Below are positions 4,678 through 33,401 of a DNA stretch of 64,000 nt, piece after piece. Each line of letters begins with the position of its first letter. Positions within the stretch are counted from its first letter, which is position 1. The notes under the pieces are model-generated. The model saw only the letters and a list, made by a program, of their open reading frames with translations. It did no database searches and had not been told where the DNA came from. The DNA comes from Streptomyces hokutonensis (lineage in GTDB: Bacteria > Actinomycetota > Actinomycetes > Streptomycetales > Streptomycetaceae). Location: NCBI RefSeq assembly GCF_000376565.1, contig NZ_BARG01000024.1, forward strand, positions 62,001-126,000, in the 5' to 3' direction. Both the position numbers and the translations under genes were made by a program.

Positions 4678-4729
4678 CGATCCGTCACCACCCAAGCCCC
4701 ATCAACACCCAACAGAGAAAGGCGAGTTC

Positions 4730-4906: not shown

Positions 4907-4910
4907 CGCG

Positions 4911-5801
4911 GTGGTCTCCTCCACAGCGCCCAGGACGGCGTTGCTGGCTTCCAGGATGCGCTTCGAGGAGAAGCGCCTCCTGGAGGCCCTGGACCGCCGG
5001 GGCGTCCCCTGTACGACCATCGACACCCGGACCGTCCAACACCACCTGCACGACACCCCGCCGCCGTGGGACCTGGTGCTCAACCGGGAGATCTCGGCGA
5101 CCAAGGCCCTCTACGCGGCCCTCACCTACGAGTCCGCCGGCGTCACCGTCGTCAACTCCGCCACGGCCATCGAGACGTGCGGAGACAAGTGGCGCACCTC
5201 GCTCGCGCTGCGCGCCGCCGGGATCCCCGCACCGCCCGCCGCCCTCGCCCTCACGGCACAGGCCGCGGAGGAGGCGGCCGAGGAGATCGGCTATCCGGTG
5301 GTCCTCAAACCCCTGGTGGGTTCCTGGGGCAGGCGGGTCGCCCTGCTCCCGGACGCCGCCGCGCTGCGCACGGTGCTTGAGTACAGCGAGGCACTGCCGT
5401 CGCCGCTGGCCCAACTGGCCTATCTGCAAGGGTACGTGGACAAGCCCGACCGAGACATCAGAGTGATCGTCGTCGGCGGCGCTCCGATCGGCGCCATGTA
5501 CCGCAGGTCGGACGGCTGGCGGACCAACGTGGCACGCGGCGCGACGACCACGGCCTGCCCCCTCACCGACGACCTCGCCAAACTCGCGGCGACCGCGGCC
5601 CGGGAGACCGGCGCGGACCTCGCGGGAGTCGATCTCGTCGAGGACGCGGACGGCGGCCTCCAGGTCCTCGAGGTCAACCACGGAGTGGAGTTCAAGGGCT
5701 TCCAGGAGGCACACGAGGGCCGCGTCGACGTCGCCGAAGTCATCGTGGAGCGCCTGGTGTTGGGGACAGACAGGGGAACTGGCAGGGGGGTGGACGCATG
5801 A
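4911..5801 (+). CDS. LysX-type ATP-grasp ligase (AmCP-amino acid ligase)
   Basis: This 296-residue protein belongs to the RimK/LysX ATP-grasp family. It should use ATP to join the alpha-amino group of glutamate (or aminoadipate) to the C-terminal Glu of the carrier. Visible features are the GDKWRTSLALRAAGIP segment, the VLKPLVGSWGR phosphate loop region, and the C-terminal VNHGVEFKG that matches the LysX/ArgX substrate and metal site. The GTG at 4911 follows GGGGGGAG and lies just after the carrier gene; longer in-frame starts would run inside the carrier gene. It overlaps the reductase gene by four bases. Whether it prefers Glu or aminoadipate cannot be settled by eye; the transketolase context favours Glu. 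Confidence 0.93.
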   Translation: MVSSTAPRTALLASRMRFEEKRLLEALDRRGVPCTTIDTRTVQHHLHDTPPPWDLVLNREISATKALYAALTYESAGVTVVNSATAIETCGDKWRTSLALRAAGIPAPPAALALTAQAAEEAAEEIGYPVVLKPLVGSWGRRVALLPDAAALRTVLEYSEALPSPLAQLAYLQGYVDKPDRDIRVIVVGGAPIGAMYRRSDGWRTNVARGATTTACPLTDDLAKLAATAARETGADLAGVDLVEDADGGLQVLEVNHGVEFKGFQEAHEGRVDVAEVIVERLVLGTDRGTGRGVDA

Positions 5802-6823
5802 TCCGGGCCGCGGTGTTCGGTGCCGCCGGATACATCGGCGGCGAACTGCTCAGGCTGCTGCTCGGCCACCCCGAGGTGGAGCTGACGGCCGCCGTGTCGT
5901 CCCGCTTCCCCGGCAAACGCCTCGACAGCGTCCACCCCAACCTCCGCTCGGCGACCGACCTCACCTTCACCACCCCCGAGCGGGCCGACGACTGCGACGT
6001 GGTCCTCCTGGCCACCCCGCACCGGTCCACCGTGGATCTCGTACGGCACTGGGCGGACCGCACGGACCTGCTGATCGACCTCTCGGGCGACTTCCGGCTG
6101 CGCGACCCGGACGTGTACCGGCGCTACTACGGAGTGCCGCACGAGGCACCGGAGTTGCTCGACCGGTTCGTCCCGGGCATACCGGAACTGCACCGCGACC
6201 GGCTGCGCACCGCACGGCTGATCAGTGTCCCGGGCTGCATGGCGAACGCCGCGATCCTCGCACTGCACCCGCTGGCCGCCCGCCAACTCGCGCTCTCGCC
6301 CGTGCTGTTGGACGGCCGTACCGGATCCAGCGGTTCGGGCGCCTCCGCCGGCGATTCCAACCTGCACGCCGAACGCAGCGGCGCTTTAAGGGTGTTCGCG
6401 CCCGCCACCCATCGGCATGAGGCCGAAGTCGCCCAGCACACCGGCCTCGACGCCCGGATGACGGCGACCGGAGTCGAGGCCGTGCGGGGCGTGCAGATCG
6501 TCTGCCACGCCGAGGTGCCGGAGGGCGTCGAGGAGCGGGCCGTACGGGCGGCGTACCGCGAGGCCTACGCCGACGAGCCGTTCGTCCGCCTGGTGGCCCA
6601 CAAGCGGGGCACGTACCGCTATCCCGAGCCCAAGATCCTGCTCGGCTCCAACTACTGCGACATCGGCCACGCATGGGACGACGCGTCGCGTCGCCTGGTG
6701 GTCGTCGCCGCCCTCGACAACCTCGTCAAGGGCGGCGCGGGCAACGCCGTGCAGTGCCTCAACGTACGCATGGGCTGGCCCGAATCGTACGGACTGTCCT
6801 TCCCCGGGCTGCACCCGGTGTGA
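5798..6823 (+). CDS. LysY/ArgC-type AmCP-gamma-glutamyl phosphate reductase
   Basis: This 341-residue protein is an N-acyl-gamma-glutamyl-phosphate reductase homologue. It has the GAAGYIGGELLRLL NADP-binding start, LLATPH, and the active-site SVPGCMANA with Cys147; HKRGTYRYPEPKIL is unusual relative to textbook ArgC. It should reduce the carrier-bound acyl phosphate to the semialdehyde, the substrate for the split transketolase. It starts by ATGA overlap with the ligase gene. Leu197 is encoded by TTA (6386-6388), the only TTA codon noticed in the cluster, implying dependence on the bldA tRNA and hence on developmental stage. Confidence 0.92.
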   Translation: MIRAAVFGAAGYIGGELLRLLLGHPEVELTAAVSSRFPGKRLDSVHPNLRSATDLTFTTPERADDCDVVLLATPHRSTVDLVRHWADRTDLLIDLSGDFRLRDPDVYRRYYGVPHEAPELLDRFVPGIPELHRDRLRTARLISVPGCMANAAILALHPLAARQLALSPVLLDGRTGSSGSGASAGDSNLHAERSGALRVFAPATHRHEAEVAQHTGLDARMTATGVEAVRGVQIVCHAEVPEGVEERAVRAAYREAYADEPFVRLVAHKRGTYRYPEPKILLGSNYCDIGHAWDDASRRLVVVAALDNLVKGGAGNAVQCLNVRMGWPESYGLSFPGLHPV

Positions 6824-6856
6824 GGACCGTGCACGAGCGTGAAGGGAGAACCGACC

Positions 6857-7732
6857 ATGGGCGCGCCCCGGTTGGTCGTCGTCAAATGCGGCGGCAACAG
6901 CGATGTGAACGCCGCCGGTATCTGCGCGGATGTCGCCGGTCTGGTGAAGGAGGGCCACCGTCTCGTGGTGGTGCACGGCGGATCGGCCGAGATCGACCGG
7001 CTGGCCGGCGAACTCGACGTACCGCAGCGGCGCCTGGTCTCGCCCGACGGGGTCTCGGCCCGGCACACCGACGAAGCAACCCTGGCCGTGGTAACGCTGG
7101 CGCTGGCCGGCTCGGTGAAGCCGAAGCTCGTGAGCGAGCTGCTGGGCAGGGGCATCCCCGCCGTGGGCCTCACCGGTCTCGACGGCGGACTCGTGCTGAC
7201 CCGTCGCAAGAAGGGACAGAAGGCGGTCGTCGACGGGCGCACCGTGGTCGTGCGCGACGACCACAGCGGCCGGATCGAGGCAGTACGCGGGGAGTTGATC
7301 GCGACCCTGCTCGCGCACGGGTACGTCCCCGTCGTGTCGCCGCCCGCCTCCGACGAGCACGGTGCGCCCGTCAACGCGGACGCCGACCGTGTCGCGGCGG
7401 CGCTCGCGGCCGAACTCGACGCGGACCAGCTGGTGTTGCTCACCGGAGCGGCCGGTGTGCTCGCCGACCCGGACGACGAGGACAGCGTGCTCGCCGACTG
7501 CGAAGTGGCCAGGGCGGGCGCGCCGGGGGAGTTCGCCCGGGGCGGTATGGCGCTCAAACTCGTCGCCGCCCGGGAGGCGTTGCTCGGCGGCGTCGGACAG
7601 GTGACCGTCGCCGACGGGCGGAGCGAGGGGGCCGTCGGTGAGGCGCTGCGCGGCGCCGGGACGGACGTACGACTGACGTCCAGTCAACAACCCGATCAGG
7701 AACAGGAATTGCCCGGAATAGACAGGGAGTGA
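6857..7732 (+). CDS. LysZ/ArgB-type AmCP-glutamate kinase
   Basis: This 291-residue amino acid kinase family protein should phosphorylate the side-chain carboxylate of the carrier-bound amino acid. It shows VVKCGGNS at the N-terminus, VVVHGGSAEIDRLAGEL, NADADRVAAALAAEL, and LLTGAAGVL. The ATG at 6857 is preferred over a GTG at 6839 because GAAGGGAG sits at good distance before it. In the lys/arg carrier pathways this enzyme acts before the LysY reductase, so the gene order (ligase, reductase, kinase) is not the reaction order. It ends three bases before the deacylase gene. Confidence 0.92.
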   Translation: MGAPRLVVVKCGGNSDVNAAGICADVAGLVKEGHRLVVVHGGSAEIDRLAGELDVPQRRLVSPDGVSARHTDEATLAVVTLALAGSVKPKLVSELLGRGIPAVGLTGLDGGLVLTRRKKGQKAVVDGRTVVVRDDHSGRIEAVRGELIATLLAHGYVPVVSPPASDEHGAPVNADADRVAAALAAELDADQLVLLTGAAGVLADPDDEDSVLADCEVARAGAPGEFARGGMALKLVAAREALLGGVGQVTVADGRSEGAVGEALRGAGTDVRLTSSQQPDQEQELPGIDRE

Positions 7733-7735
7733 CCG

Positions 7736-8863
7736 ATGATCACCGAAACCGCTGTCCCGCCCGCCGCCCTCGCAGGCACCGATCCCGGCGCCGCCGTCGA
7801 CATGCTGCGGTCCATGCTGGAGATCCCCTCCCCGTCCGGCGAGGAAGGCCCGTTGGCTCGTCATCTGGCCGACGTCATGAGGGGACTCGGACTCACCGCC
7901 CGCATCGACGACGCGGGCAACGTGATCGGCGAGACCCCGGTCCGCGCCGGCCCGCGCATCATGCTGCTGGGCCATATGGACACCGTCCCGGGGCAGTTGG
8001 CCGTACACCTCGAAGGCGGCCGACTGCACGGCCGTGGCGCGGCCGACGCCCAGGGGCCCCTCGCGGCCATGGTGCGCGCGGTCGCCGCCCACCGCGACTT
8101 CCCCGGACAGCTCGTGGTCGTGGGAGTCGTGGAGGAGGAGACCCCGCGGTCGCGTGGAGCGGTGCACATCGGGCGGACCCTCGCGCGGCCGGACGCGCTG
8201 ATCGTGGGGGAGCCCAGCGGGTGGCCGGGGATCGTCATCGGGTACAAGGGGAAGCTGGACCTGGAGTACCGGGTCGCCTGCCCCGCCACGCACCCGAGCA
8301 ACCCGGTCGAGAAGGCCACCGAATCCGCCGCCGCGTTCTGGCAGGACGTGCTGGAGCTGCTCGGACCCGAGCAGGGGCACGCCTCGTTCGCGACCCCGGG
8401 CGCGACCCTGGTGGGGATGCGCGGGGACCTCACCGGTGCGGAGCTGTACGTGAGCATCCGTACGCCCGTCGGGTTCGACCAGGACGGGTTCGTCGCCGCT
8501 CTGCGGGAACGGGACCAAGTCCGGGGCAGGGACGGCAGGTTGGCGGTCGTCAACGGGGTGCGGGCGGTGGAGGCGGAGCGGCGCGGGCCGGTGGCGCGCG
8601 CTCTCAGCGCGGGGATCCGGGGCCTCGGCGGGACTCCCCGGCCGACGCTGAAGACCGCCACCTCCGACATGAACACCCTGGCCGAGGTCTGGGACATCCC
8701 GATGGCGACCTACGGCCCCGGGGACAGCGCGTTGGACCACTCCGACGAGGAGCACATCCTCGTCGACGACTACCTGCGCGGTATCGCCGTCCTGTCCACG
8801 GCACTGGGCGAGTTGACCACCCTGCGGGCCGGTGCCGCCGGTGAACTCGGGGGTGCGTCATGA
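7736..8863 (+). CDS. LysK-type M20 hydrolase that frees the product from AmCP
   Basis: This 375-residue M20-family metallopeptidase resembles LysK/ArgE. Zinc-site features are LLGHMDTVPG (first His and Asp), GRGAADAQGPLAAM (bridging Asp), VVEEETPRSRGA (catalytic Glu pair) and GEPSGW. In carrier pathways LysK cuts the isopeptide bond to the terminal Glu of the carrier and releases the finished amino acid; here that would be the extended, aminated C7-type amino acid if the transketolase and aminotransferase act first. SD-like GGGAGTG precedes the ATG. It overlaps the cysC homologue by ATGA, tying release of the amino acid to PAPS supply. Confidence 0.92.
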   Translation: MITETAVPPAALAGTDPGAAVDMLRSMLEIPSPSGEEGPLARHLADVMRGLGLTARIDDAGNVIGETPVRAGPRIMLLGHMDTVPGQLAVHLEGGRLHGRGAADAQGPLAAMVRAVAAHRDFPGQLVVVGVVEEETPRSRGAVHIGRTLARPDALIVGEPSGWPGIVIGYKGKLDLEYRVACPATHPSNPVEKATESAAAFWQDVLELLGPEQGHASFATPGATLVGMRGDLTGAELYVSIRTPVGFDQDGFVAALRERDQVRGRDGRLAVVNGVRAVEAERRGPVARALSAGIRGLGGTPRPTLKTATSDMNTLAEVWDIPMATYGPGDSALDHSDEEHILVDDYLRGIAVLSTALGELTTLRAGAAGELGGAS

Positions 8864-9441
8864 GCGTTGGGCAACCGGTCCTGGCGAAGCCGGAGTTCTG
8901 CACCTGCTGGCCCGGCGCGACCGTATGGCTGACGGGGCTGCCGAGCGCGGGCAAGTCCACCATCGCCGCCGCGCTGGCGGAGCGACTGCGCCACGACCGG
9001 CGGCGGGTGGAGGTGCTCGACGGCGACGAGATCCGCAGGTTCCTGTCGGCCGGGCTCGGCTTCTCCCGCGCGGACCGGCATCTCAACGTCCAGCGGATCG
9101 GCCTGGTCGCGGAAGTGCTGGCGCGCAACGGGGTGATGGTCCTGGTGCCGGTGATCGCGCCGTACGCGGACTCCAGGTCCTCAGTCCGCCGCCGCCACGA
9201 GAAGTCCGGGACGAGGTATCTGGAGGTGCATGTCGCGACACCGGCGTCGGTCTGCTCGGAGCGCGACGTCAAAGGCCTGTACGCCCAGCAGGCGGCCGGC
9301 CGGATCTCCGGACTGACCGGCGCGGACGACCCCTACGAGGAGCCCGCCCACCCCGATCTGCGGATCGACGCACACGCCCAGCGGGTCGTCGAATCAGTGG
9401 ACGCGCTGCACGCGCTGCTCGTGCGAAAGGAGTTGGCATGA
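8860..9441 (+). CDS. cysC: Adenylylsulfate kinase (APS kinase)
   Basis: This 193-residue protein has the P-loop GLPSAGKST (residues 26-34), the LDGDEIRRFLSAGLGFSRADRHLNVQRIG segment typical of APS kinases in split form, and the APYADSR and HPDLRID motifs. It makes PAPS from APS and ATP. In this operon it is overlapped on both sides (ATGA with the deacylase and with cysD), so it belongs to the biosynthetic cluster rather than to primary sulfate assimilation. No APS/PAPS reductase or sulfite reductase is nearby, which supports a role in supplying PAPS for a sulfotransferase. None is present in the window. Confidence 0.93.
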   Translation: MSVGQPVLAKPEFCTCWPGATVWLTGLPSAGKSTIAAALAERLRHDRRRVEVLDGDEIRRFLSAGLGFSRADRHLNVQRIGLVAEVLARNGVMVLVPVIAPYADSRSSVRRRHEKSGTRYLEVHVATPASVCSERDVKGLYAQQAAGRISGLTGADDPYEEPAHPDLRIDAHAQRVVESVDALHALLVRKELA

Positions 9442-10375
9442 CTGTCGCCGCCAAGCACACGGCCGGCACGGAGAACCCGTATCAACTGCCGCACCTGGAC
9501 GCCCTTGAGTCGGAGGCGGTCCACATCTTCCGTGAGGTGGCGGGTGAGTTCGAGCGGCCGGTGATTCTGTTCTCCGGCGGCAAGGACTCGATCGTCATGC
9601 TGCATCTGGCGTTGAAGGCGTTCGCTCCGGCGCCGGTTCCCTTCTCGCTGCTGCATGTGGACACGGGACACAACTTCCCCGAGGTCCTTGAATATCGGGA
9701 CCGCACGGTCGAAAAGCACGGGTTGCGCCTCCATGTGGCCTCCGTACAGGACTACATCGACCGCGGTGTGCTGCGGGAACGGCCCGACGGGACCCGTAAT
9801 CCGCTCCAGACCGTGCCGTTGACGGAGAGGATCCAGAGCGAGCGCTTCGACGCGGTCTTCGGTGGCGGTCGTAGGGACGAGGAGAAGGCACGCGCGAAGG
9901 AGCGGGTGTTCTCGCTGCGGGACGAGTTCTCGCAGTGGGAACCCCGCGCCGCCAGCGGCCCGAGCTGTGGAATCTCTACAACACTCGGCACGCGCCCGGC
10001 GAGCACGTCCGCGTGTTCCCGCTGTCCAACTGGACCGAGCTGGACGTCTGGCAGTACATCGCACGCGAGGGCATCGACCTCCCCGACATCTACTACGCCC
10101 ATGAGCGGGAGGTCTTCCGACGGGGCGAACTCTGGCTGACACCGGGGAGTTGGGGCGGGCCGGGTGTCGGCGAGACGGTCGAGAAGCGTCAGGTGCGGTA
10201 CCGGACCGTCGGCGACATGTCCTGCACCGGCGCGGTCGACTCCGGCGCCGTCACCGTCGAGCAGGTCATCACCGAGATCACCGCCTCCCGGCTGACGGAG
10301 CGGGGCGCCACCCGGGCCGACGACAAGCTGTCCGAGGCCGCCATGGAGGACCGCAAGCGCGAGGGGTATTTCTGA
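9438..10375 (+). pseudogene. cysD: Sulfate adenylyltransferase subunit 2 gene with a frameshift
   Basis: The product is the PP-loop ATP sulfurylase subunit (SGGKDS at residues 46-51, VDTGHNFPE, GGGRRDEEKARAKER). The frame from the ATG at 9438 follows the family as far as EFSQWEPR (about 9947) and then turns into unrelated sequence. The family match resumes in the +1-shifted frame at RRQRPELWN (from about 9947) and runs to the normal end MEDRKREGYF at 10375. Compared with the expected spacing the sequence has two extra bases, or lacks one, within 9939-9952 in a GC-run (CCCCGCGCCGCC). If real, the product is truncated before the C-terminal half and sulfate activation would depend on another cysD. 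A sequencing error at a GC-rich run is equally plausible, as both sides look under selection. Confidence 0.85.
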
Positions 10376-10377
10376 TC

Positions 10378-11646
10378 ATGGGGACCACCATCGGCACATT
10401 GCGCTTCGCCACCGCGGGCTCCGTCGACGACGGCAAGTCCACGCTCGTAGGACGGCTGTTGCACGACTCCAAGTCGGTCCTCACCGACCAACTGGAGGCC
10501 GTGGAGCGGGCGTCGGCGAACCGAGGCCAGGAAGGCCCCGACCTCGCACTGCTCACCGACGGCCTGCGCGCCGAACGCGAACAGGGCATCACCATCGACG
10601 TCGCCTACCGCTACTTCGCCACCCCGCGTCGCCGGTTCATCCTCGCCGACACCCCCGGCCATGTGCAGTACACCCGCAACATGGTGACGGGTGCCTCCAC
10701 GGCCGAGCTGACGGTGATCCTCGTCGACGCCCGCAACGGAGTCGTCGAACAGACCCGCCGCCACGCCGCGATCGCCGCGCTGCTGCGCGTCCCGCACGTC
10801 GTCCTCGCCGTCAACAAGATGGACCTCGTCGACTACCGCGAGCCCGTGTTCGCCGCCATCGCCGAGGAGTTCACGGCCTGCGCGAGCGAACTCGGCATAC
10901 CCGAGATCACCGCGATCCCCATCTCGGCACTGGCCGGCGACAACGTCGTGGAACCGTCCGCGCACATGGACTGGTACGGCGGGCCGACCGTCCTCGAACA
11001 CCTGGAGACCGTTCCCGTCGGCACCGCTCTCGCGAGTGCGGCGGCCCGTTTCCCCGTGCAGTACGTCATCCGTCCGCAGAGCGCCGAGCACCCCGACTAC
11101 CGGGGATACGCGGGGCAGATCGCTTCCGGTGTGCTGCGCGTCGGCGACCCGGTCACCGTCCTGCCGTCCGGTCTCACCAGCACGATCACCGGTATCGACG
11201 CCCTCGGTACGCCGGTCGACCGGGCCCGGGCGCCGCAGTCGGTGACGCTTCTCCTCGAGGACGACCTCGACATCTCACGCGGTGACCTCATCGCTCCCAG
11301 CGCGCAGGCACCGGCCACCACGCAGGACGTCCAGGCCACGGTCTGTCATCTCAACGAGCGTCCGCTGAAAGTAAGTTCGCGTGTCCTGCTCAAACACGGC
11401 ACCCGTACCGTCAAGGCCGTCGTACGGGAACTCCCGCACCGCATCGACCTCACCCATGGCCTGGCCCGCGAGACCGACCCCGGTGAGTTCGCCGTCAACG
11501 ACATCGGCTCGATGGTGCTGCACACCGCCGAGCCACTGCCGTTCGACGCGTACGCCGACTCCCGCCTCACCGGTTCCTTCCTCCTGATCAGTCCCGCCGA
11601 CGGGGCCGTCCTCGCGGCGGGGATGTGCGCGGCTGCCGATCGGTGA
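10378..11646 (+). CDS. cysN: Sulfate adenylyltransferase subunit 1 (GTPase)
   Basis: This 422-residue translation-factor-like GTPase has the P-loop GSVDDGKST (residues 14-22), EREQGITIDVAYRYF, DTPGHVQYTRNM and NKMD. It drives APS formation together with CysD. The start at 10378 is two bases after the cysD stop. It lacks a fused C-terminal APS kinase domain, fitting the separate cysC two genes upstream. It is the last gene of the operon; the next gene is on the opposite strand. Confidence 0.93.
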   Translation: MGTTIGTLRFATAGSVDDGKSTLVGRLLHDSKSVLTDQLEAVERASANRGQEGPDLALLTDGLRAEREQGITIDVAYRYFATPRRRFILADTPGHVQYTRNMVTGASTAELTVILVDARNGVVEQTRRHAAIAALLRVPHVVLAVNKMDLVDYREPVFAAIAEEFTACASELGIPEITAIPISALAGDNVVEPSAHMDWYGGPTVLEHLETVPVGTALASAAARFPVQYVIRPQSAEHPDYRGYAGQIASGVLRVGDPVTVLPSGLTSTITGIDALGTPVDRARAPQSVTLLLEDDLDISRGDLIAPSAQAPATTQDVQATVCHLNERPLKVSSRVLLKHGTRTVKAVVRELPHRIDLTHGLARETDPGEFAVNDIGSMVLHTAEPLPFDAYADSRLTGSFLLISPADGAVLAAGMCAAADR

Positions 11647-17960: not shown

Positions 17961-19038
17961 CTTTTGGCCCCCTGGCGTTGGCCCGCAGAGTCCGCGGAGA
18001 CGGCCCGGAAGCGCAGGAACAGTGGCGCCGCGTAGAAGCCGATCCTGACGGCTTTCGCGGAGCGGCGGCGGAACCGGTGGAACAGCGGCAGTCTGCTGAC
18101 CGAGACAGGCGATTCCTCGTCGGTGTCGGCCTGTTCGGCTGCGTTCACCCGCGCGGATGCCTCGTCCAGCCAGCCGTTCGCCACCGCGGTCGGGTTCTGG
18201 AGTGCTTCCGGTGTGCCGGCGGTCGACTGCTTCGCCTTCCACCGTGCGGTGGGCGAAAGCCACCTGCCGAGTCGCATCCTCGAAGGCCGGTCGGCGGCCC
18301 GCTGGAGGTCGACAGGCGCAAGGACCCATGGCTCACCATCGTGCCGAATGGGGTTCATGTCACCGGCACAGGGCCGTCCGCCGAGCGGTAGGCCAACTCC
18401 TAGCAGAGAACGGCAAGTTGAAGTGAAGTCGGGCTCGTCGTTGCGGTTGGGGCAAGCATGTCGGCCTTGGGTGCGCCGAGCGGTCGAGGCCGAGGCGGGG
18501 TGAACACCCCCGGTCCGGACTCGACCAGGACGCCGTCGCCGGGAAGACCCGCGCCGCGTGGCCCGGGTCTTGCCGGTGGAGCGAACCGCTGCGGGACTTC
18601 GTTGCAGGGCGCCGACGCCAACCCCTGTCTCTGGACACGCGCCCACGGCCGCGCTCCGGTGGTGCAGGCTCCGGTCTGCCTCACCTACGAGAACCCGCCC
18701 GGCGTCCACACCGCCGCCGAGCGCGTCGACGCGTTCAAGAACGGCCCGCGGAGCGGATGGTTCAACTGCGCCAATCTCAACGCTGCTGTGCGAAGGCGCC
18801 GATTAGCGGAATTTCCCCGACGAATGGCGGGGTCCGTCCCGTAGATCTCCTCGACCACCGCAAACGGATGGGAATTTGTCTCTGAGGCAAATCCGTGTGG
18901 GCCAGGCCAGGTTCGGTGTGAGGGTTCCGTAACTCCGCTTTGTTCCGGATGACTTGGTTCGGTAACCGGAGGTGGCTGAAGTAATGGTCACAAGCAGCGG
19001 CGAGGCGCAAGACCTCGGCGCCAGGCATGGAGGATGTC
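17961..19038. other. About 1.1 kb with no convincing gene, probably decayed
   Basis: Several overlapping frames exist but none has a clear start, motif or clean codon bias. A minus-strand frame from ATG 18358 and a plus-strand frame over about 18600-18790 (containing PVCLTYENPPGVHTAAERVDAF) look protein-like in composition and may be fragments of lost genes; I do not recognise them. From about 18790 to 19030 base composition becomes AT-richer than coding DNA, as expected for the promoter of the following nitrilase operon. Confidence 0.4.
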
Positions 19039-19344
19039 ATGCCCGAGATGTATTTCGATGTGCGCTGGCCCGATGATACGACCCAGCGCTGCTATTCCCC
19101 CTCGACAGTCGTCGAGGAGTATTTCGCGGCAGGCGACACCTACGAACTGGCGGATTTCCTGGAGCGCAGTCGAACAGCGCTCGGAATCGCCGGTGAGCGG
19201 GTCCGTGAGAAGTTCGGTTTCCACTGCACGGGCGCTTCGGGCCAGTTGGAGCAGATCGAGGAGACGGTGCGCGTCCGCGCCTTCCCCGCCGGAGCCAAGG
19301 TCACGGTCGAGGCGCTGCTCGACGCCGACGGGAGCCCGAGGTGA
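19039..19344 (+). CDS. MSMEG_0570-family small protein (nitrilase locus)
   Basis: This 101-residue protein starts [12 protein letters not shown] and continues [14 protein letters not shown], matching the MSMEG_0570 family found with Nit1-type nitrilase operons. GGAGG six bases before the ATG at 19039 fixes the start over an upstream ATG at 19027. It is soluble, has no known catalytic motif, and its role is unknown. It is the first gene of a nine-gene, tightly coupled operon; its stop overlaps the next GTG by four bases. Confidence 0.9.
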
Positions 19345-20657
19345 GCGCGGAGCCCCGCCTCGCCGGGGCCCACCACACCGTCGCCGTCATCGGCGGCGGC
19401 CAGGCGGGACTGTCGATCAGCCACGGTCTGCGCGAACGCGGTGTCGGGCATGTGGTCGTCGAGGCGAACCGGGTGGGGCACGAGTGGCGGGAGCGCCGCT
19501 GGGACTCCTTCTGCCTCGTGACCCCCAACTGGCAGTGCAGACTGCCGGGCCACCCCTACGCCGGCAGCGACCCGAACGGCTTCATGGTCCGCGACGAGAT
19601 CGTGCGCTACCTGGAGGAGTACGTCACCGCCTTCCGGCCGCCGCTGGTGGAAGGGGTGGCCGTGACCCGGCTGCGCCGCTCGGCGACGGGCGTCTTCGAA
19701 GTCACCACCACGGCGGGGGAGTTCACCGCCGACCAGGTGGTCGTCGCGACCGGCCCCTACCACCGGCCGCGGATCCCGAGGACCGCCGAACGGCTGCCCG
19801 CAGCCGTCGCCCAGTTCCACTCCTCCGGCTACCGCAACCCCGGCCAACTCCCCGACGGCGCCGTCCTCGTGGTGGGCACCGGCCAGTCCGGCTGCCAGAT
19901 AGCCGAAGACCTGCACCTCGCAGGCCGACAGGTACACCTCGCGGTCGGCAGCGCGCCCCGGGTCGCCCGCTTCTACCGCGGCCGGGACTGCGTGGCCTGG
20001 CTGGACGACATGGGCCACTACGCCAAGAGCATCGACGGGTTCGACGACGCCGACGCGGTGCGCCTGCGGGTCAACCACTACGTCACCGGACGGGACGGGG
20101 GCCGCGACATCGATCTGCGCGCCTTCGCCCGCGACGGGATGCGCCTGTACGGCCGGCTGACCGAAGTCGGCGTCGAACGGCTGGAGTTCGCCGACGACCT
20201 GAAGGTGAACCTCGATCACGCGGACGCGGTGGCCGAGGGCATCAAGGACGCGATCGACGCGCACATCGAGGCCAACGGCATCGAGGCACCCGAGGAGGCC
20301 CGGTACGTACCGGTGTGGGAACCGGACGGAGAACCGGGGGAGTTGGACCTCGCGGCGGCCGGTGTCACCTCCGTCGTCTGGGCGACCGGCTTCACCCGCG
20401 ACCACCGCTGGATCGAGATCCCCGTCTTCGACGGCCGCGGCTACCCGATGCACTGGCGGGGCGTCTCCAGCGTGCCCGGCCTGTACTTCCTGGGCCTGCC
20501 CTGGCAGCACTCGTGGGGTTCGGGACGCTTCGAGGCGGTGGGCAGGGACGCGGAGTTCCTGGCGAACCACATCGACGCCTCGCGCCGCCTGGCCGACGTC
20601 TGCGGCACCCTCACCGGCGCGCCCGGCGCGCTCGCCTCCGCCCTCCCGATCGGCTGA
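19341..20657 (+). CDS. MSMEG_0569-family flavin-dependent oxidoreductase
   Basis: This 438-residue flavoprotein has the N-terminal FAD-binding [21 protein letters not shown] and a second dinucleotide motif [17 protein letters not shown] near residue 175, the arrangement of flavin monooxygenases and related NADPH enzymes. [17 protein letters not shown] near the C-terminus is typical of this class. It lies in the Nit1C-type locus, where an oxidoreductase is a fixed partner of the nitrilase. The reaction is not known. Start is GTG 19341, overlapping the previous stop. Confidence 0.9.
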
Positions 20658-20662
20658 CGGCC

Positions 20663-21478
20663 ATGGTCTTCGACGCGCACCGCCACATCGGCGTCCTGCC
20701 CGCGTACCCCTTCTACGGCGGCCCACCCGTCAATCCCGACACCACCGCTCGCGCCACCGTCAAGCAACTGATCGCCGACCTGGACGCGGAGGGCACCGAA
20801 CGCGCCCTGGTCATCCCCAACTACGGCGTCCCCGACCCCGCGATCGCGTTCTCCTTCAACGAGTTGGCCATCGAGGCCGCGCAGTCCGACGACCGGATCC
20901 GGGCGGGCCTGTGGGTCTCGCCGCGCCCCGAGGACGAGCAACGCACCGTGCGGGCAATGGAGTTGGCGGGCGAGGAGGGGGTCCGCGCACTCAAGCTCAG
21001 CTTCCTGCTGGGCGGCCGCCCCACGGACCCGGCCTGCCGCCCGCAGCTCGACCGGATCTTCGCCACCGCCGCGCGGCACGGCCTCGTCGTCCACGTCCAC
21101 ACCTCTCCCGGTGCCGCCTCCGACATCGACGAGGTCGGTCATCTGGTCGACTGGTATGCCGATCAAGTCCCTGTCCATCTCGTGCACTTCGGCGGCGGGA
21201 TGAGCGGCCACATCAAGCTCGCCGGCTCCCGGTTCTTCGACTGGATCACCGCCGGCAAGCGCGTCTACACCGACCTCTCCTGGGCCATCGGCTTCACTCC
21301 CCGCTGGCTGGCCCAGGAGATCGAGCGCCGCGGCATCGGTCACGACCGGGTGCTCTTCGCCAGCGACCAGCCGTGGGGCGACTTCGCGGGCGAGTACGCC
21401 CGTCTCGCCGCGGCGACCGGCGGCGGTGCCCTGGGCGACCTGGTCTTCCGGGACACCTTCGCCGCGCTCTACGACTGA
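20663..21478 (+). CDS. Amidohydrolase-2 family metal-dependent hydrolase (nitrilase locus)
   Basis: This 271-residue TIM-barrel protein begins FDAHRHIG (metal-binding His-x-His), continues with LKLSFLLGG, LVVHVHTSPG, HLVHFGGG and ends its barrel with LFASDQPWGD, whose Asp is the usual catalytic and metal ligand. This is the amidohydrolase-2 pattern (as in ACMS decarboxylase and related hydrolases). It occurs in actinobacterial versions of the nitrilase operon. Substrate unknown. It starts five bases after the flavoprotein stop with a weak ribosome site, so coupled translation is likely. Confidence 0.88.
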   Translation: MVFDAHRHIGVLPAYPFYGGPPVNPDTTARATVKQLIADLDAEGTERALVIPNYGVPDPAIAFSFNELAIEAAQSDDRIRAGLWVSPRPEDEQRTVRAMELAGEEGVRALKLSFLLGGRPTDPACRPQLDRIFATAARHGLVVHVHTSPGAASDIDEVGHLVDWYADQVPVHLVHFGGGMSGHIKLAGSRFFDWITAGKRVYTDLSWAIGFTPRWLAQEIERRGIGHDRVLFASDQPWGDFAGEYARLAAATGGGALGDLVFRDTFAALYD

Positions 21479-21515
21479 CCGTCCCGCCCCCTTCCGTACC
21501 CACAAGGAGACAGCC

Positions 21516-22037
21516 ATGTCCGAAACCGTCCAGCTCAGCGACGTCGAGCAGAAGTCCCTCGACGAGATCCCGCACCCCTCCCTGCCCGAGGGCTCCAGCA
21601 TCTACGGCTCCACCAAGGTCTTCCCCGACTACCAGGCCGAGGACGGCGAGACCTACTTCACCCTCGTGCACGGCATCGCCCACGAGTCGTCCGTGTCCTT
21701 CGTCGCCGTCCTCCAGGCCACCCGCGCCCTGCGCAAGGGCTTCGAGACCGCCATCTACTTCTACGGCCCGGGCTCCCTCAACTGCCTTGCCACACGCGGC
21801 TTCCCGACCACCGGCAACTCCGCGTTCCCGGGCGAGCACAACATCAACAACCAGCTCAAGACGTTCATCGCCGAGGGCGGCAAGGTCTTCTGCTGCCGCT
21901 TCGGGCTGTCTCTGCACGGCGCCCGTGAGGAGGACCTCATCGAGGGCGTCATCCCCACCCACCCCCTCGACGTCCAGGACGCGCTGATCCACTACGCGCG
22001 CAAGGGCGCCATCATCAACTCCACCTACCAGCTGTAA
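21516..22037 (+). CDS. MSMEG_0572 / Sll0783-family nitrogen-starvation protein
   Basis: This 173-residue soluble protein contains GSTKVFPDYQAEDGETYFTLVHGIAHE, FYGPGSLNCLATRGFP and GGKVFCCRFGLSLHGAREEDLIEGVIPTHPLDV, characteristic of the MSMEG_0572/Sll0783 family; the fold looks DsrE-like, with conserved Cys in a FCCRFGLS segment. In Synechocystis the homologous gene is induced on nitrogen starvation. AAGGAGA precedes the ATG by six bases. It is the most diagnostic marker of this operon; its reaction is unknown. Confidence 0.9.
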   Translation: MSETVQLSDVEQKSLDEIPHPSLPEGSSIYGSTKVFPDYQAEDGETYFTLVHGIAHESSVSFVAVLQATRALRKGFETAIYFYGPGSLNCLATRGFPTTGNSAFPGEHNINNQLKTFIAEGGKVFCCRFGLSLHGAREEDLIEGVIPTHPLDVQDALIHYARKGAIINSTYQL

Positions 22038-22047
22038 GGGGCCCGCC

Positions 22048-23148
22048 ATGAGCGTTGGCACCGGATCGACAGCCGTGGACGTCCGCATCATGACCCGTGC
22101 CGAACTCGCCCTGCGCGGGGTCGCGTTGGACGCCCCCGTACGGCGTCCCGACGGCGCGGGACCCAGCGACGACGGCCACGTTCTCGTGGGCGGTGCCAAC
22201 GCGGCCCTGCCCACCAACCCCGCCAGCCCGTACCGTGTGCGCGACGGCCGGGTCTGGCTCGGCGAGGACACCGGGACATTCAAAGACACTGGCCTCACCC
22301 TGACCCCCGTACAGCGTCCGAGGTTCTACGACCTCACGACCGCCGACGGCGTCCCCTACGAGCACATCGCCCGCCTGCACGGCGCCGACGTCCTGGCCAC
22401 CACCGTCGTCCAGACCTGTATCCGCTACGCCGAATCCGATCGCTGCCGCTTCTGCACCATCGAGGAGTCCCTGCGCTCCGGCGCCACGGTGGCCGCGAAG
22501 ACCCCGGCGCAGCTCGCAGAGGTCGCCGAGGCCGCCGTGCGGTTGGACGGCGTCAAACAGATGGTCATGACGACGGGGACGACCACCGGCCCGGACCGCG
22601 GCGCCCGCGCCCTGGTCCGGTCGGTACGCGCTGTCCTCAAGGCAGTCCCCGGGCTGCCCGTCCAGGTGCAGTGCGAACCGCCCGGCGACCTCGCCTGGAT
22701 CCGCGGTCTGCACGACGCCGGGGCCACCGCGATCGGCATCCACGCCGAGTCCCTCGACGACGAGGTGCGCCGGCGTTGGATGCCCGGCAAGTCGTCCGTC
22801 CCGCTTGCCGAGTACGAGGCCGCCTGGGACGAGGCGGTGCGGATCTTCGGCCCGAACCGGGTCTCCACCTACCTGCTCGTCGGACTCGGTGAGGATCCCG
22901 ACGAACTCATCGCGGGGGCAGGAGAGTTGATCGACCGGGGTGTGTACCCGTTCGTCGTCCCCTTCCGGCCGATGCAGGGCACACTCGCCGCCCGCGACGG
23001 AACAGCCGCACCGAGCGCCGAGTTGCTGGGCTACGTCACCGAGGGCGTCGCCGCCAAACTGATGGCCGCCGGGATGCGCGGCGCCGACCAGAAGGCGGGG
23101 TGCGCGGCCTGCGGGGCGTGCAGCGTGCTGCCGACAGCAGGCGGGTGA
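22048..23148 (+). CDS. MSMEG_0568-family radical SAM protein
   Basis: This 366-residue protein carries an atypical cluster motif, TCIRYAESDRCRFC (C-x8-C-x2-C, near residue 127), instead of the usual CX3CX2C, as known for this family. It has CEPPGDLAWI and STYLLVGLGEDPDELI segments of a radical SAM barrel and an extra C-terminal cysteine set (GCAACGACS) that may bind a second cluster. It is a constant member of the nitrilase operon, where it may make the nitrilase substrate or a peptide-free cofactor-like metabolite. That role is inference. Confidence 0.9.
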   Translation: MSVGTGSTAVDVRIMTRAELALRGVALDAPVRRPDGAGPSDDGHVLVGGANAALPTNPASPYRVRDGRVWLGEDTGTFKDTGLTLTPVQRPRFYDLTTADGVPYEHIARLHGADVLATTVVQTCIRYAESDRCRFCTIEESLRSGATVAAKTPAQLAEVAEAAVRLDGVKQMVMTTGTTTGPDRGARALVRSVRAVLKAVPGLPVQVQCEPPGDLAWIRGLHDAGATAIGIHAESLDDEVRRRWMPGKSSVPLAEYEAAWDEAVRIFGPNRVSTYLLVGLGEDPDELIAGAGELIDRGVYPFVVPFRPMQGTLAARDGTAAPSAELLGYVTEGVAAKLMAAGMRGADQKAGCAACGACSVLPTAGG

Positions 23149-23152
23149 GGGC

Positions 23153-24586
23153 GTGCTCCTCGACGGATCCCCGACACCGACGGCGACCGAGCGGCCGCAG
23201 GACATCCTGGCTCTGCTGGGCGACCGCAGCACCCTCGCACGTGCGACCTCCTTCCATGTCGAAGAGGCCGGTGGGCAGGGCGAGTTGGCCGCCTACCGGC
23301 GGCTGCGCCGGGAGGTCTTCGTCCACGAGCAGGAGCTTTTCCACGGCCACGACCTGGACGACCGGGACGACGATCCGCGCACGCTGGTGCTGGTCGCCAA
23401 GGACGCCGGCGGCACGGTCCTCGGCGGGGTACGGCTGGGGCCGGTCGCCGACGGCCCCGACCTCGGCTGGTGGGCGGGCGGCCGACTCGTCGTCACGCCG
23501 GACGCCCGTGGCCCCAAGGGCATCGGGGCCGCGCTGGTGCGAGCCGCGTGTGCTCGGGCGGAAGCAGAGGGCGTACTGCGCTTCGACGCGACCGTCCAGG
23601 CGCGCAACGAGCCCTTGTTCCGGCGGCTGGGCTGGAGATCCGTACGACCGACCGAGGTCGCGAGCACACCGCACACGCTGATGCGGTGGCCCATCGGGCG
23701 CATCGCGGCGCAGACGGCGGCCACCAAGTCCGCCCTGGGTCCCCTGCTCGCCGCGCTTCCCGCTCCGCCCGGCTTCGTCGGCGACGACGGCACACCCCTC
23801 CCCGGCACCGACGTGATCGCCGCGTGCGACGCGATCGTGCCCTCCATGGTCGAGCGCGACCCGGAATGGGCGGGCTGGTGCTCGGTCCTGGTGAACGTCA
23901 ACGACCTTGCCGCGATGGGTGCTTCACCGCTCGGGCTGCTCGACGCCCTCGGCGCCAGGGACGCCGGGCACGCGGCCCGGGTGCTGGACGGACTGGCCCG
24001 CGCGGCACGGTCGTACGGCATCCCGGTCCTCGGCGGCCACACTCAGCTCGGCGTTCCCGCCGCCCTGTCGGTGACCGCGCTCGGCCGTACCGCGCACCCG
24101 GTGCCGGGCGGCGGCGGACGGCCGGGGCACGCCGTACGGCTGACGGCCGACCTGGGCGGCGGCTGGCGACCGGGATACCGGGGTCGCCAGTGGGACTCGA
24201 CGACCCACCGCCGTAGCGACGAACTGCGCGCCATGACAGGTGCGGTGGCCGCCGCCCGGCCCGCCGCGGCCAAGGACGTGTCGATGGCCGGGATCGCCGG
24301 GACCCTCGGCATGCTCGCCGAGGCGAGCGGCTGCCGGGCGGTGCTCGACGTGGCCGCCGTACCGCGACCGGACGCCGGAGCCACCGTCGGCGACTGGCTG
24401 ACCTGCTTCCCCGGCTGGGCCATGCTCACCGCCGACGCACCGGGTGCCCCGCCGCTGCCCGCCGGGCCCGCCACGGGCGCGGTCTGCGGCGAACTCACGG
24501 CAGGAGAAGGCGTCGGGCTGCGCTGGCCCGACGGAGAGATCACCGAAGCGGTCACCTCCACCGTGACCGGGATGGGACCCGCATGA
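23153..24586 (+). CDS. MSMEG_0567 / Sll0787-family fusion: N-acetyltransferase plus AIR-synthase-like domain
   Basis: This 477-residue protein has two parts. Residues about 35-185 form a GNAT domain (RREVFVHEQELF, LVLVAKDAGGTVLGGVRLG, ARGPKGIGAALVRAAC with the acetyl-CoA loop). Residues about 205-475 resemble AIR synthase / selenophosphate synthetase folds (DGTPLPGTDVIAACDAIVPSMVE, VNVNDLAAMGASPLGLLDAL, GHTQLGVPAALSVTALG). In Pseudomonas Nit1C loci these are separate genes; here they are fused. The ATP-dependent domain would activate a carbonyl or carboxyl. The GTG at 23153 has only a weak ribosome site but lies four bases after the upstream stop. Confidence 0.9.
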   Translation: MLLDGSPTPTATERPQDILALLGDRSTLARATSFHVEEAGGQGELAAYRRLRREVFVHEQELFHGHDLDDRDDDPRTLVLVAKDAGGTVLGGVRLGPVADGPDLGWWAGGRLVVTPDARGPKGIGAALVRAACARAEAEGVLRFDATVQARNEPLFRRLGWRSVRPTEVASTPHTLMRWPIGRIAAQTAATKSALGPLLAALPAPPGFVGDDGTPLPGTDVIAACDAIVPSMVERDPEWAGWCSVLVNVNDLAAMGASPLGLLDALGARDAGHAARVLDGLARAARSYGIPVLGGHTQLGVPAALSVTALGRTAHPVPGGGGRPGHAVRLTADLGGGWRPGYRGRQWDSTTHRRSDELRAMTGAVAAARPAAAKDVSMAGIAGTLGMLAEASGCRAVLDVAAVPRPDAGATVGDWLTCFPGWAMLTADAPGAPPLPAGPATGAVCGELTAGEGVGLRWPDGEITEAVTSTVTGMGPA

Positions 24587-25434
24587 GCACCCTGCGCATG
24601 GCCGCCGTCGCCGCCGAGTTCGGCCGCGACCTCGAAGAGGACTTCGCGATCGCCGAACGGCTGGTCAAGGAGGCCCGGGAACAGGACGTACGACTGCTCG
24701 CTCTCCCGGAGGCATGCCTGGGCGGGTATCTCCTCAGCCTCGACGACTCCGCCGAACTCGACGAGGGGCCGCCCGCCCTCGCCCTCGACGGCCCCGAGAT
24801 CCGCCGACTGGCCGCCCTGGCCGGGGAGATGACCGTTGTCGCCGGGTACTGCGAGGCGGACGGGGACGGCCGCCGCTACAACAGCGTCGTCTGCGTCACC
24901 GGCGACGGCGTCCTCGGCAACCACCGCAAGGTCCATCAGCCGCTGAGCGAGGACGCGTCGTACGCCTCCGGCGACCGCTTCCACGCCTTCGACACTCCGG
25001 TCGGCCGGATCGGCATGATGATCTGCTACGACAAGGCGTTCCCGGAGTCGGCACGGGCGCTGGCGCTGGACGGCGCCGAGATCGGGGTGTGCGTGTCGGC
25101 GTGGCCGGGTGCGCGCACCAACGCGGCCGTCGACCTCGAACAGGACCGCTGGAAGCGGCGGTTCGACCTGTTCGACCGGGCCCGTGCCCTGGAGAACCAG
25201 ATCGTGTGGCTGTCGGCCAACCAGGCGGGCACCTTCGGGTCGCTACGCTTCGTCGGCAGTGCCAAGGTCGTCGACCCCGGCGGCGAGATCCTCGCCGACA
25301 CGGGGGTGGCGGCCGGCATCGCCGTCGCCGAACTCGACGTCGCACAGGCCCTTGAGACCGCCCGCCGGTCGATGGGGCACCTGCGCGACCGGCGGCCCGA
25401 GACCTATACGTACGCAGGAGCAGTCAGCGCATGA
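24583..25434 (+). CDS. Nitrilase-superfamily (carbon-nitrogen) hydrolase, catalytically intact
   Basis: This 283-residue enzyme keeps the triad of the nitrilase superfamily: Glu43 (LPEACLGGYL), Lys116 (NHRKVH) and Cys148 (ICYDKAFPE). It hydrolyses a nitrile or amide C-N bond. It is the expected core enzyme of the operon; in cyanide-assimilating pseudomonads the Nit1C nitrilase is required for growth on cyanide, and in other bacteria the natural substrate is unsettled. It starts by ATGA overlap and is overlapped in turn by a diverged paralogue. Confidence 0.92.
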   Translation: MSTLRMAAVAAEFGRDLEEDFAIAERLVKEAREQDVRLLALPEACLGGYLLSLDDSAELDEGPPALALDGPEIRRLAALAGEMTVVAGYCEADGDGRRYNSVVCVTGDGVLGNHRKVHQPLSEDASYASGDRFHAFDTPVGRIGMMICYDKAFPESARALALDGAEIGVCVSAWPGARTNAAVDLEQDRWKRRFDLFDRARALENQIVWLSANQAGTFGSLRFVGSAKVVDPGGEILADTGVAAGIAVAELDVAQALETARRSMGHLRDRRPETYTYAGAVSA

Positions 25435-26267
25435 GCATGATCCGGATCGCGGCCGTGGCCGCCCACTTCGGCCGCGACCTGGAGTTCGACCTGGCCCGCA
25501 TCGCCAAGCTCGTCGACGACGCCCGTGCCGCCGGCGCCCGGCTGCTCGTGCTGCCCGACGCCGCCCTCGGCGGCTACCTCGCCGATCTGCGCCACCCCGA
25601 CCCCGAGGCACTGCCGCCGGCCCTCAAGCCCGACGACCCGCTGATCCTCCAAGTCGCCAAGCTGGCGGCCGAGATGGTGGTGTGCGTCGGCTACTGCGAG
25701 GACGCGGGCGACGAGCGCTTCAACGCGGCCGTCTGCGTCAGCGGCGACGGGATCCTCGGCCGGCACCGCAAGGTCCACCTCCCGGCCGGCGAGGTCGCCG
25801 CCTACGCGCCCGGCGATCGCTTCGACGCCTTCGACACCCCGGTCGGCCGCCTCGGCATGCTCATCGACTACGACAAGACCTTCCCCGAGTCCGCCCGCTC
25901 CCTCGCCCTGGACGGAGCCGAGATCCTCGCCTGCCTGTCCGCCTGGCCCACGTCCATCACCAACCGGGCTCCGCGCATGGCCCAGGACCGCCAGGCCAAG
26001 CTCTTCGACCTCTACGACCAGGCCCGGGCCGCCGAGAACCAGGTCGTCCTCGCCTCCTCCAACCAGACCGGCGCCATGGGCGGCATGCGCTTCCTCGGCC
26101 AGGCCAAGGTCGTCGGCCCCGGCGGCGACATCCTCGCCCGCACCTGGTCCAAGGCCGGCCTCGCCGTCGCCGAACTCGACGTCGCCGCCGAGACCGACCG
26201 GGCCCGCCGCGTCCTGCGCCACCTCGACGAACGCCGCCCCACCGCCTACCGGGAGTCCAGGACGTGA
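25431..26267 (+). CDS. Nitrilase-superfamily paralogue lacking the catalytic Glu and Cys
   Basis: This 278-residue protein is a clear tandem paralogue of the gene before it (same start IRIAAVAAHFGRDLE, same LGGYL, HRKVH, DYDKTFPESARSLALDGAEI). The lysine is kept (Lys114), but the catalytic Glu is Asp43 (LPDAALGGYL) and the nucleophile Cys is Asp146 (LIDYDKTF). It is unlikely to be a normal nitrilase. It may be a non-catalytic partner that forms a mixed oligomer with the active subunit, or an enzyme with another reaction. The reading frame is intact and coupled by ATGA on one side and GTGA on the other, so it is probably functional rather than decaying. Confidence 0.9.
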   Translation: MSMIRIAAVAAHFGRDLEFDLARIAKLVDDARAAGARLLVLPDAALGGYLADLRHPDPEALPPALKPDDPLILQVAKLAAEMVVCVGYCEDAGDERFNAAVCVSGDGILGRHRKVHLPAGEVAAYAPGDRFDAFDTPVGRLGMLIDYDKTFPESARSLALDGAEILACLSAWPTSITNRAPRMAQDRQAKLFDLYDQARAAENQVVLASSNQTGAMGGMRFLGQAKVVGPGGDILARTWSKAGLAVAELDVAAETDRARRVLRHLDERRPTAYRESRT

Positions 26268-27340
26268 AGATCGCCCTGCTCAGCTACTCCACCAAGCCGC
26301 GCGGCGGGGTCGTCCACACCCTCGCCCTCGCGGAGGCCCTCGCGGCGCTCGGCGAGGACGTCACGGTGTGGACCCTGGGCCGGGGCGGCGACACGGGCTT
26401 CTTCCGGCCCGTCTCCCCTGCGGTACGGCTGCGGATCGTGCCGTTCGCCGACGGCCCCGCCGACGAGACGGTCGGCCAACGGGTTCGGCGCTCCATCGCC
26501 ACCCTCCGCGACGCCTTCGACCCCGCCCCGTACGACATCGTCCACGCCCAGGACTGCATCAGCGCCAACGCCGTCGGCCGCTGCGTCCGCACCGTCCACC
26601 ACATCGACCACTTCACCACCCCCGAGCTGGCCGCCTGCCACGAACGGGCCATCGTCGAGCCGCACGCGCACATCTGCGTGTCGACGGCTGTGGCGGAGGA
26701 ACTCCGGGCGGGCTGGGGCCTGTCGGCGGAGGTGATCGCCAACGGGGTGGCCTACGACCGCTTCGCCGCCACCGACCCGACGGCGAGGTCGAGTTGGCGC
26801 TCCCGGCTGGGCCGCTACGTCCTGACCGTCGGCGGCATCGAACCCCGCAAGGGCTCCCTGGATCTGCTGGAGGCCTACGCCCTGCTGCGCGCCGAACACC
26901 CCGACGTACGCCTGGTGATCGCGGGCGGCGAGACCCTCTTCGACTACCGCGACTACCGCGCCCGCTGGGAGCGGCGGGCGGACGAACTCGGCGTGGAGCC
27001 AGTGGTGTTGGGCCCGGTACCCGACGACGAACTGCCCGCCCTGGTCGCCGCCGCCGACGCGTTCGCCTTTCCCTCGCTCAAGGAGGGCTTCGGTCTGGCC
27101 GCCATGGAGGCGCTCGCCGCGGGCGTCCCCCTGGTCGTACGGGACCTTCCCGTGCTGCGCGAGGTCTTCGGCCCGGCGGCCCACTTCGCCGCCACGCCCG
27201 CGCAGTTGGCCGCCGCGCTCGGCCACACCCTCACGGTCGACGACCCGGCCGGACGGGCCGCCGGACAGGAGTTGGCCGCCGCTCACACCTGGTCCGAGGC
27301 GGCCCGTCGCCATCTGGCCCTGTACCGCTCCCTCAGCTGA
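26264..27340 (+). CDS. MSMEG_0565-family glycosyltransferase (GT4-like)
   Basis: This 358-residue protein has the GT-B fold: KIALLSYSTKPRGGVVHTLALAEAL at the N-terminus, VLTVGGIEPRKGSLDLLEAY opening the donor domain, and FPSLKEGFGLAAMEALAAGVPLV with the E-x7-E nucleotide-sugar motif. It is the last gene of the operon (GTG 26264 overlapping the previous stop) and matches the MSMEG_0565 family, which co-occurs with the nitrilase set. It suggests the pathway product is glycosylated or that the glycosyl group is a handle. The acceptor is unknown. Confidence 0.9.
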   Translation: MKIALLSYSTKPRGGVVHTLALAEALAALGEDVTVWTLGRGGDTGFFRPVSPAVRLRIVPFADGPADETVGQRVRRSIATLRDAFDPAPYDIVHAQDCISANAVGRCVRTVHHIDHFTTPELAACHERAIVEPHAHICVSTAVAEELRAGWGLSAEVIANGVAYDRFAATDPTARSSWRSRLGRYVLTVGGIEPRKGSLDLLEAYALLRAEHPDVRLVIAGGETLFDYRDYRARWERRADELGVEPVVLGPVPDDELPALVAAADAFAFPSLKEGFGLAAMEALAAGVPLVVRDLPVLREVFGPAAHFAATPAQLAAALGHTLTVDDPAGRAAGQELAAAHTWSEAARRHLALYRSLS

Positions 27341-32473: not shown

Positions 32474-32546
32474 CACCGAACGGCGTTTCCCGTCCCGCCG
32501 GTTCAGGTAGGAGACCGTTGTCGACCCACGGGCGAGGGGGAGTTGC

Positions 32547-33401
32547 ATGGCTGGGAACGAGAACGACGGCCGGCTGGCGGAGGAGTTCTTCACTCCCGGA
32601 TCCTCGTCCTTCACCGACTTCCTGGCCGCGCACCGGCCCGCGCTGCTGCCCACCCGCCGCCCCTTCCCGGACGGCGTCCGCGCGAAGGACGGCCAATTCC
32701 CGCACGGCACCACGGTGTTGGCGCTCACCTACCGCGACGGCGTGCTGATCGCCGGCGACCGCAGGGCCACCATGGGCAACGTCATCGCGCAACGCGACCT
32801 GGAGAAGGTCCACCCGGCGGACGACTACACGGCGGTCGCCTTCGCCGGCACGGTCGGACTCGCCGTCGACATGGTGAAGCTGTACCAGGTCGAGCTGACC
32901 CACTTCGAGAAGATCGAGGGCATCCCGATGACCCTCAACGCCAAGGCCACCCGCCTCGCCGGCCTGATCCGCCAGAACCTCGGCCAGGCCATGCAGGGCC
33001 TCGCCGTCGTACCGCTCCTCGTCGGCTACGACCCCGCCGCTCCCGAGGGCGCCAAGGGCCGTATCTTCACCTTCGACGTCGTCGGCGGCACCTACGAGAA
33101 GCCGGACTTCCACGCCGAGGGCTCCGGCTCCCCCTACGCCAGGGGCGCCCTGAAGAAACTGTTCCAGCAGGGCATGTCCCGGCGCGACGCGGCCCTGGCC
33201 GCGCTGCAGGCCCTGTACGACGCGGCCGACGACGACTCGGCCACCGGCGGCCCCGACATCAACCGCCGTATCTTCCCCATCGTGTCGGTCATCACCGAGG
33301 ACGGCTTCGAGCGGCTGCCGGAACCGGAGACCGAGGCGCTGACCCGCGAGATGGTCGAACAGCGTCGGAGCCACCCGGACGGACCGACCGTCGCACCCTG
33401 A
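32547..33401 (+). CDS. prcB: Proteasome beta subunit, orphan paralogue
   Basis: This 284-residue protein is a 20S proteasome beta subunit with a 54-residue propeptide ending HG before Thr55. Counted from that Thr as residue 1, the catalytic set Thr1, Asp17 (AGDRRATMGN) and Lys33 is intact, as are GTVGLAVDMVKLYQ and SATGGPDINRR. It matches the N-terminal features of Streptomyces PrcB (FFTPGSSSFTDFLAAHRP) so is the same type. The normal locus has prcB beside prcA, pup and dop; here no prcA, pup, dop, pafA or mpa-type gene is in the window, so it is an isolated copy. GAGGGGGAG precedes the ATG. Confidence 0.92.
   Translation: MAGNENDGRLAEEFFTPGSSSFTDFLAAHRPALLPTRRPFPDGVRAKDGQFPHGTTVLALTYRDGVLIAGDRRATMGNVIAQRDLEKVHPADDYTAVAFAGTVGLAVDMVKLYQVELTHFEKIEGIPMTLNAKATRLAGLIRQNLGQAMQGLAVVPLLVGYDPAAPEGAKGRIFTFDVVGGTYEKPDFHAEGSGSPYARGALKKLFQQGMSRRDAALAALQALYDAADDDSATGGPDINRRIFPIVSVITEDGFERLPEPETEALTREMVEQRRSHPDGPTVAP

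Follow-up and report, generated by a model that had tools for sequence, protein, structure and literature searches.

A complete but orphan proteasome beta subunit is encoded within the 64,000-nt stretch of the Streptomyces hokutonensis genome analysed here (the window), and this protein, which we call PrcB2 together with its orthologs, is probably a catalytic beta subunit exchangeable within the Pup-proteasome; it would assemble with PrcA into cores with an altered S1 pocket, most likely insensitive to natural proteasome inhibitors. The usual view is that a bacterial 20S core contains one kind of beta subunit. We put at about even the chance that Streptomyces run two Pup-proteasomes sharing one alpha subunit and one ATPase, namely a housekeeping core and a PrcB2 core that has a changed S1 pocket and is co-expressed with arc. 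Such an arrangement would serve as standing protection from environmental proteasome inhibitors or as a specificity switch, rather than representing the self-resistance gene of one producer. The features of the locus are collected in Table 1.

Table 1. Features of the prcB2 locus, in window coordinates.
Feature	Position	Strand	Basis
Promoter-like element GTTTCCCGTCCCGCCGGTTCAGGTAG, ends 36 nt before ATG	32485..32510	+	116/116 PrcB2 upstreams, constant spacing
Shine-Dalgarno-like GAGGGGGAG	32534..32542	+	sequence
prcB2, orphan proteasome beta subunit, 284 aa	32547..33401	+	TIGR03690 363 bits; ortholog in 45/247 Streptomyces
54-residue propeptide, His-Gly just before Thr1	32547..32708	+	aligned with Rhodococcus and Mycobacterium beta subunits
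Mature beta subunit; Thr1 32709, Asp17 32757, Lys33 32805	32709..33398	+	alignment and sequence
S1-pocket codons Leu31 32799, His35 32811, Phe45 32841, Val49 32853	32799..32855	+	near-invariant in 116 PrcB2, differ from PrcB1

The prcB2 open reading frame starts with ATG, stops with TGA and has a GC3 of 0.94. In a profile search its product scores 363.2 bits against the NCBIfam model TIGR03690 ('20S_bact_beta'), for which the cut-off is 191.9, and the features of that family (propeptide, Thr1, Asp17 and Lys33) are all there, with Thr1 as residue 55 of the precursor and a cleavage site that reads HG|TT. This bears out the sequence-only reading, which had described the gene as a fully competent beta subunit on account of the same catalytic residues and propeptide cleavage site. 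The closest solved structures are the Rhodococcus and Mycobacterium beta subunits; an AlphaFold model of PrcB2 from 20 close homologues had a mean pLDDT of 40 and was set aside. An adjacent prcA, which is usual but inessential for the TIGR03690 family, is missing at prcB2, and none of prcA, pup or pafA is among the window genes listed, in agreement with the earlier remark that no prcA, pup or ligase gene lies nearby.

In the genome assembly (11.83 Mb in 178 contigs, 99.9% complete), exactly three places match PF00227: the adjacent genes prcB1 and prcA on contig C172, and prcB2 on contig C155. The locus on C172 is intact, with the order arc, dop, pup, prcB1, prcA and then a pafA-like gene; arc was translated and its product ends GQYL, and dop, pup and pafA were named from sequence and place without a family search. 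The search for a main prcBA locus proposed by the sequence-only reading thus found a complete one, separate from prcB2 and holding the only PrcA. Since there is a second prcB, and prcA lies on C172 and not beside prcB2, the claim that prcB2 is an orphan stands. Each of 41 further carriers likewise has exactly three PF00227 genes (two beta, one alpha), so that a single PrcA is found in 42 of 42 carriers checked and the second alpha subunit characteristic of the Rhodococcus-type double proteasome in none of them. Genomes with extra PrcBs other than PrcB2 also have just one PrcA.

A PrcB2 ortholog, 74-98% identical to the window protein, is present in 45 of 247 Streptomyces (the window genome included), and carriers were about as frequent in a second Streptomyces sample that overlaps the first. 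Housekeeping PrcBs are about 55-62% identical to the window protein. The few further genera of the order that were sampled showed no PrcB2, and among 395 genomes of a class-wide sample just three outside Streptomyces have any second PrcB, each on another branch. The same flanking genes lie on both sides of PrcB2 in most of 40 loci compared. Four Streptomyces genomes (G133, G288, G412, G440) hold a broken or partial PrcB2 copy, one of them clearly at the same site, a pattern that fits vertical inheritance with losses. These copies are L237 (about 9767-10297), L240, L258 and L259, and the promoter element is retained in L240 and L258. Mobile carriage was also considered, and neither a phage match nor a PrcB2 ortholog among plasmid records was found; one record in the plasmid collection, NZ_LT559118.1 from Nonomuraea, is 11.85 Mb long and by its length is surely a chromosome. 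The median dN/dS is 0.26 for PrcB2 versus 0.11 for PrcB1, which indicates that purifying selection acts on PrcB2, more loosely than on the housekeeping gene.

Two explanations tied to the surroundings of the window gene were rejected. PrcB2 is not a self-resistance gene of the window's biosynthetic cluster, because relatives without that cluster have it at the same site. An operon that would join it to the glycosyltransferase and flippase-like genes upstream was rejected too, as several PrcB2 loci do not have these genes and the promoter element of prcB2 itself is always there.

Comparison of 116 PrcB2 with 29 Streptomyces PrcB1 sequences reveals unvarying catalytic residues and a different substrate pocket. 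PrcB2 has Leu31 (116/116), His35 (112/116), Phe45 (114/116) and Val49 (116/116) in place of the Ile31, Phe35, Ile45 and Ala49 of PrcB1, position 35 being one that we count as an S1 position too. The S1 pocket of PrcB2 is remodelled, and probably narrower. In solved proteasomes, S1 ligands are contacted by residues 20, 31, 45, 49 and 53 (PMC5700161, PMC13180746). The 35 diagnostic columns among 222 include four of the six S1 positions (P 0.006, for fixed columns and with the positions picked after seeing the data). As a test, this excess is modest; it is not significant when the window sequence is taken alone, and because of this and the post hoc choice of positions, the weight of the argument is placed on the fixedness and specificity of the changes. 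At position 49, Ala is found without exception in the 44 intact housekeeping PrcBs examined, 14 of which come from elsewhere in the class; every PrcB2 and 15 of the 18 other extra PrcBs have Val or Thr there. Altered residues at 35 and 45 also occur in one housekeeping group (L266, L269).

A maximum-likelihood tree of PrcBs, from which the pocket columns were left out, places PrcB2 in one clade with support of 100/100. This clade falls within a larger one (clade I, 99/94) that also contains two Streptomyces extras and three extras from another family. A further thirteen extras from Streptomyces make up clade II (98/94), the sister group of Streptomyces PrcB1. Judged by this tree, extra PrcBs arose at least twice, with the S1 pocket changed each time. 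An independent-pairs test that set pocket change against being an extra copy could draw on only two pairs and had no power. The alpha-less clade II members (L083-L085, L089, L090, L092, L095-L097, L245, L248, L250, L252) have Val, Ile, Leu or Phe at position 20, Phe, Tyr, Gly or Ala at position 31, and Val or Thr at position 49 in 10 of 13; no PKS or NRPS motif was found in those of their neighbourhoods that were examined. In one genome (G383; L257, L248), the operonic prcB beside prcA is without Lys33 and other conserved residues and the orphan clade II prcB is intact, so the orphan may have taken over catalysis there. Another Streptomyces extra (L087) is rare, its branch being found in just two of 393 genomes searched.

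A link between PrcB2 and the housekeeping system comes from the upstream region. The pattern GTTT-N17-GGTAG precedes 116 of 116 PrcB2 genes, with the GGTA end usually 37-41 nt before the ATG, and among 657 upstream regions from the same loci it occurs in 41, of which 39 precede prcB2. A genome-wide search with the stricter GTTTC-N16-GGTAGG returned two places, one before prcB2 and the other at C172:95078, with the start of arc some 40 nt downstream; the reversed control returned none. By our estimate from base composition, about three chance hits are expected for the strict pattern, and it is therefore the positions of the two matches that matter, not rarity alone. In all Streptomyces loci where arc could be located (23 of 23), the element has the same position before that gene; some of these genomes have no PrcB2, and in some loci the spacer has diverged. 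No such element was found upstream of the prcB1 genes or other extra prcBs examined. The strongest evidence for placing PrcB2 with the Pup-proteasome, and against a machine of its own, is this shared element. The GTTT and GGTAG boxes resemble SigB-family sites (PMC8346170); assignment to a SigB-like stress sigma factor was not adopted, as the first -10 base differs and TAGGxT is also like a vegetative -10 box. The sequence-only reading contained neither this element common with arc, nor the fixed remodelling of the S1 pocket, nor the conserved ortholog in 18% of sampled Streptomyces.

These observations suggest the following sequence of events. PrcB2 is predicted to be made as a complete proprotein and to process itself at Thr1. 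As its promoter element is the one before arc, it is probably co-produced with the proteasomal ATPase. With one PrcA per genome, PrcB2 would assemble with that PrcA into 20S cores whose beta rings may be PrcB2-only or mixed PrcB1/PrcB2, and ARC would feed these cores through the same alpha ring. The altered S1 residues would then change both the residues after which substrates are cut and the inhibitors that fit. The benefit is the least certain step: most likely it is proteolysis that continues despite natural proteasome inhibitors, as with SalI in the salinosporamide producer. Standing insensitivity of this kind is the preferred reading, with a specificity switch close behind.

Under the latter, which we regard as possible but would advance only tentatively, the PrcB2 core would have a different peptide-cutting preference, much like an immunoproteasome, and inhibitor insensitivity would be a side effect. 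The changed and fixed S1-lining residues 31, 45 and 49, the conserved chromosomal site with no inhibitor gene cluster, and a promoter that ties PrcB2 to normal proteasome work through arc are all consistent with it; against it, 45 and 49 are the exact positions of the resistance subunit SalI (PMC6449301), and Val or Thr at 49 recurs in extra PrcBs of separate origin.

Two other accounts fare much worse. ARC docks on the alpha ring of the proteasome, and the promoter element common with arc thus speaks against the homo-oligomeric, alpha-free HslV-like protease that the sequence-only reading had offered beside mixed proteasomes. That 42 carrier genomes are without any PrcA of PrcB2's own would suit such a machine, yet HslV models score far under their cut-offs (31.7 of 137 and 26.3 of 157.75 bits), PrcB2 is nested among bacterial PrcBs on the tree, and the full PrcB propeptide is retained, all of which make it highly improbable. 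The best reading is instead the other half of the earlier proposal, a second beta subunit that has its full catalytic set and no alpha partner of its own and exchanges into the PrcA proteasome. It is also quite unlikely that PrcB2 is a decaying, dispensable duplicate with no special role. Its patchy presence (45/247), the broken or partial copies in four genomes and a dN/dS above that of PrcB1 fit such a duplicate; 116 intact copies with invariant catalytic residues and promoter element and a near-invariant pocket do not, nor does a dN/dS well under 1.

As an exchangeable subunit, PrcB2 most closely recalls SalI, which has Phe45 and Val49. SalI, encoded in the salinosporamide A cluster of Salinispora tropica, is an additional PrcB about 58% identical to the housekeeping one; the two differ at 45 and 49, and SalI forms complexes with the only alpha subunit (PMC6449301, a review). 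The resistance that it gives is about 30-fold (PMC6804068). Like SalI, PrcB2 is an extra PrcB beside a complete prcBA and is changed at S1 positions 45 and 49 (Phe45, Val49). The gene for SalI belongs to the cluster that makes the inhibitor; prcB2, by contrast, has a conserved site away from any such cluster in most of the 40 loci compared, and its promoter element is common to arc. The likeness noted is one of residues, not of setting. Because PrcB2 lies outside any inhibitor gene cluster, it is not filed as a member of the SalI-type self-resistance genes. In 12 genomes of one Micromonosporaceae-like genus, PrcB is single-copy. At the same pocket position, the mutation Ala49Thr makes human beta5 resistant to bortezomib (PMC13180746).

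A beta subunit with a proposed role in self-resistance is carried by 9 of 17 epoxyketone-type clusters (PMC8988807). Compared by description, the Epn/TmcC beta subunits resemble PrcB2 as extra PrcBs in Streptomyces and differ from it in being cluster-borne. Rhodococcus erythropolis NI86/21 has a 20S proteasome with two alpha and two beta subunits (PMC12915292) and is thus also a proteasome-bearing bacterium with more than one beta subunit, but PrcB2 carriers never have its second alpha. In the eukaryotic immunoproteasome, alternative catalytic subunits that differ in substrate-pocket residues enter one core (PMC5700161); the likeness is in the way of working only, as the system is a different one and condition-dependent exchange of PrcB2 is hypothetical.

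Extra resistant beta subunits in inhibitor clusters and the double beta of one Rhodococcus (PMC12915292) are already known, and a widespread alpha-less second beta subunit outside inhibitor clusters, with an arc-type promoter, was not found in the literature searched, which excluded most subscription journals. If true, the reading with two cores would amount to a bacterial version of the subunit exchange known from eukaryotes. A second catalytic beta subunit this widespread, changed in its pocket at the positions of a known resistance subunit and linked by its promoter element to the proteasomal ATPase, suggests one of two things: selection by natural proteasome inhibitors on many bacteria besides those that make them, or a switching of specificity by proteasomes in bacteria. 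It also counsels caution in resistance-guided genome mining, as an extra prcB alone does not mark an inhibitor gene cluster.

The window contains two further runs of genes. A biosynthetic-looking cluster at 1656-11646 includes a LysW-like carrier (4730-4906), LysX/LysY/LysZ/LysK-like genes, a split transketolase and sulfate-activation genes, and is reminiscent of pathways of the ficellomycin/vazabitide/azinomycin type. A second cluster-like run at 19027-27340 encodes, judging from sequence, a flavin monooxygenase-like protein, an amidohydrolase, a radical SAM protein, an acetyltransferase/AIR-synthase-like fusion, two nitrilase-like proteins and a glycosyltransferase.
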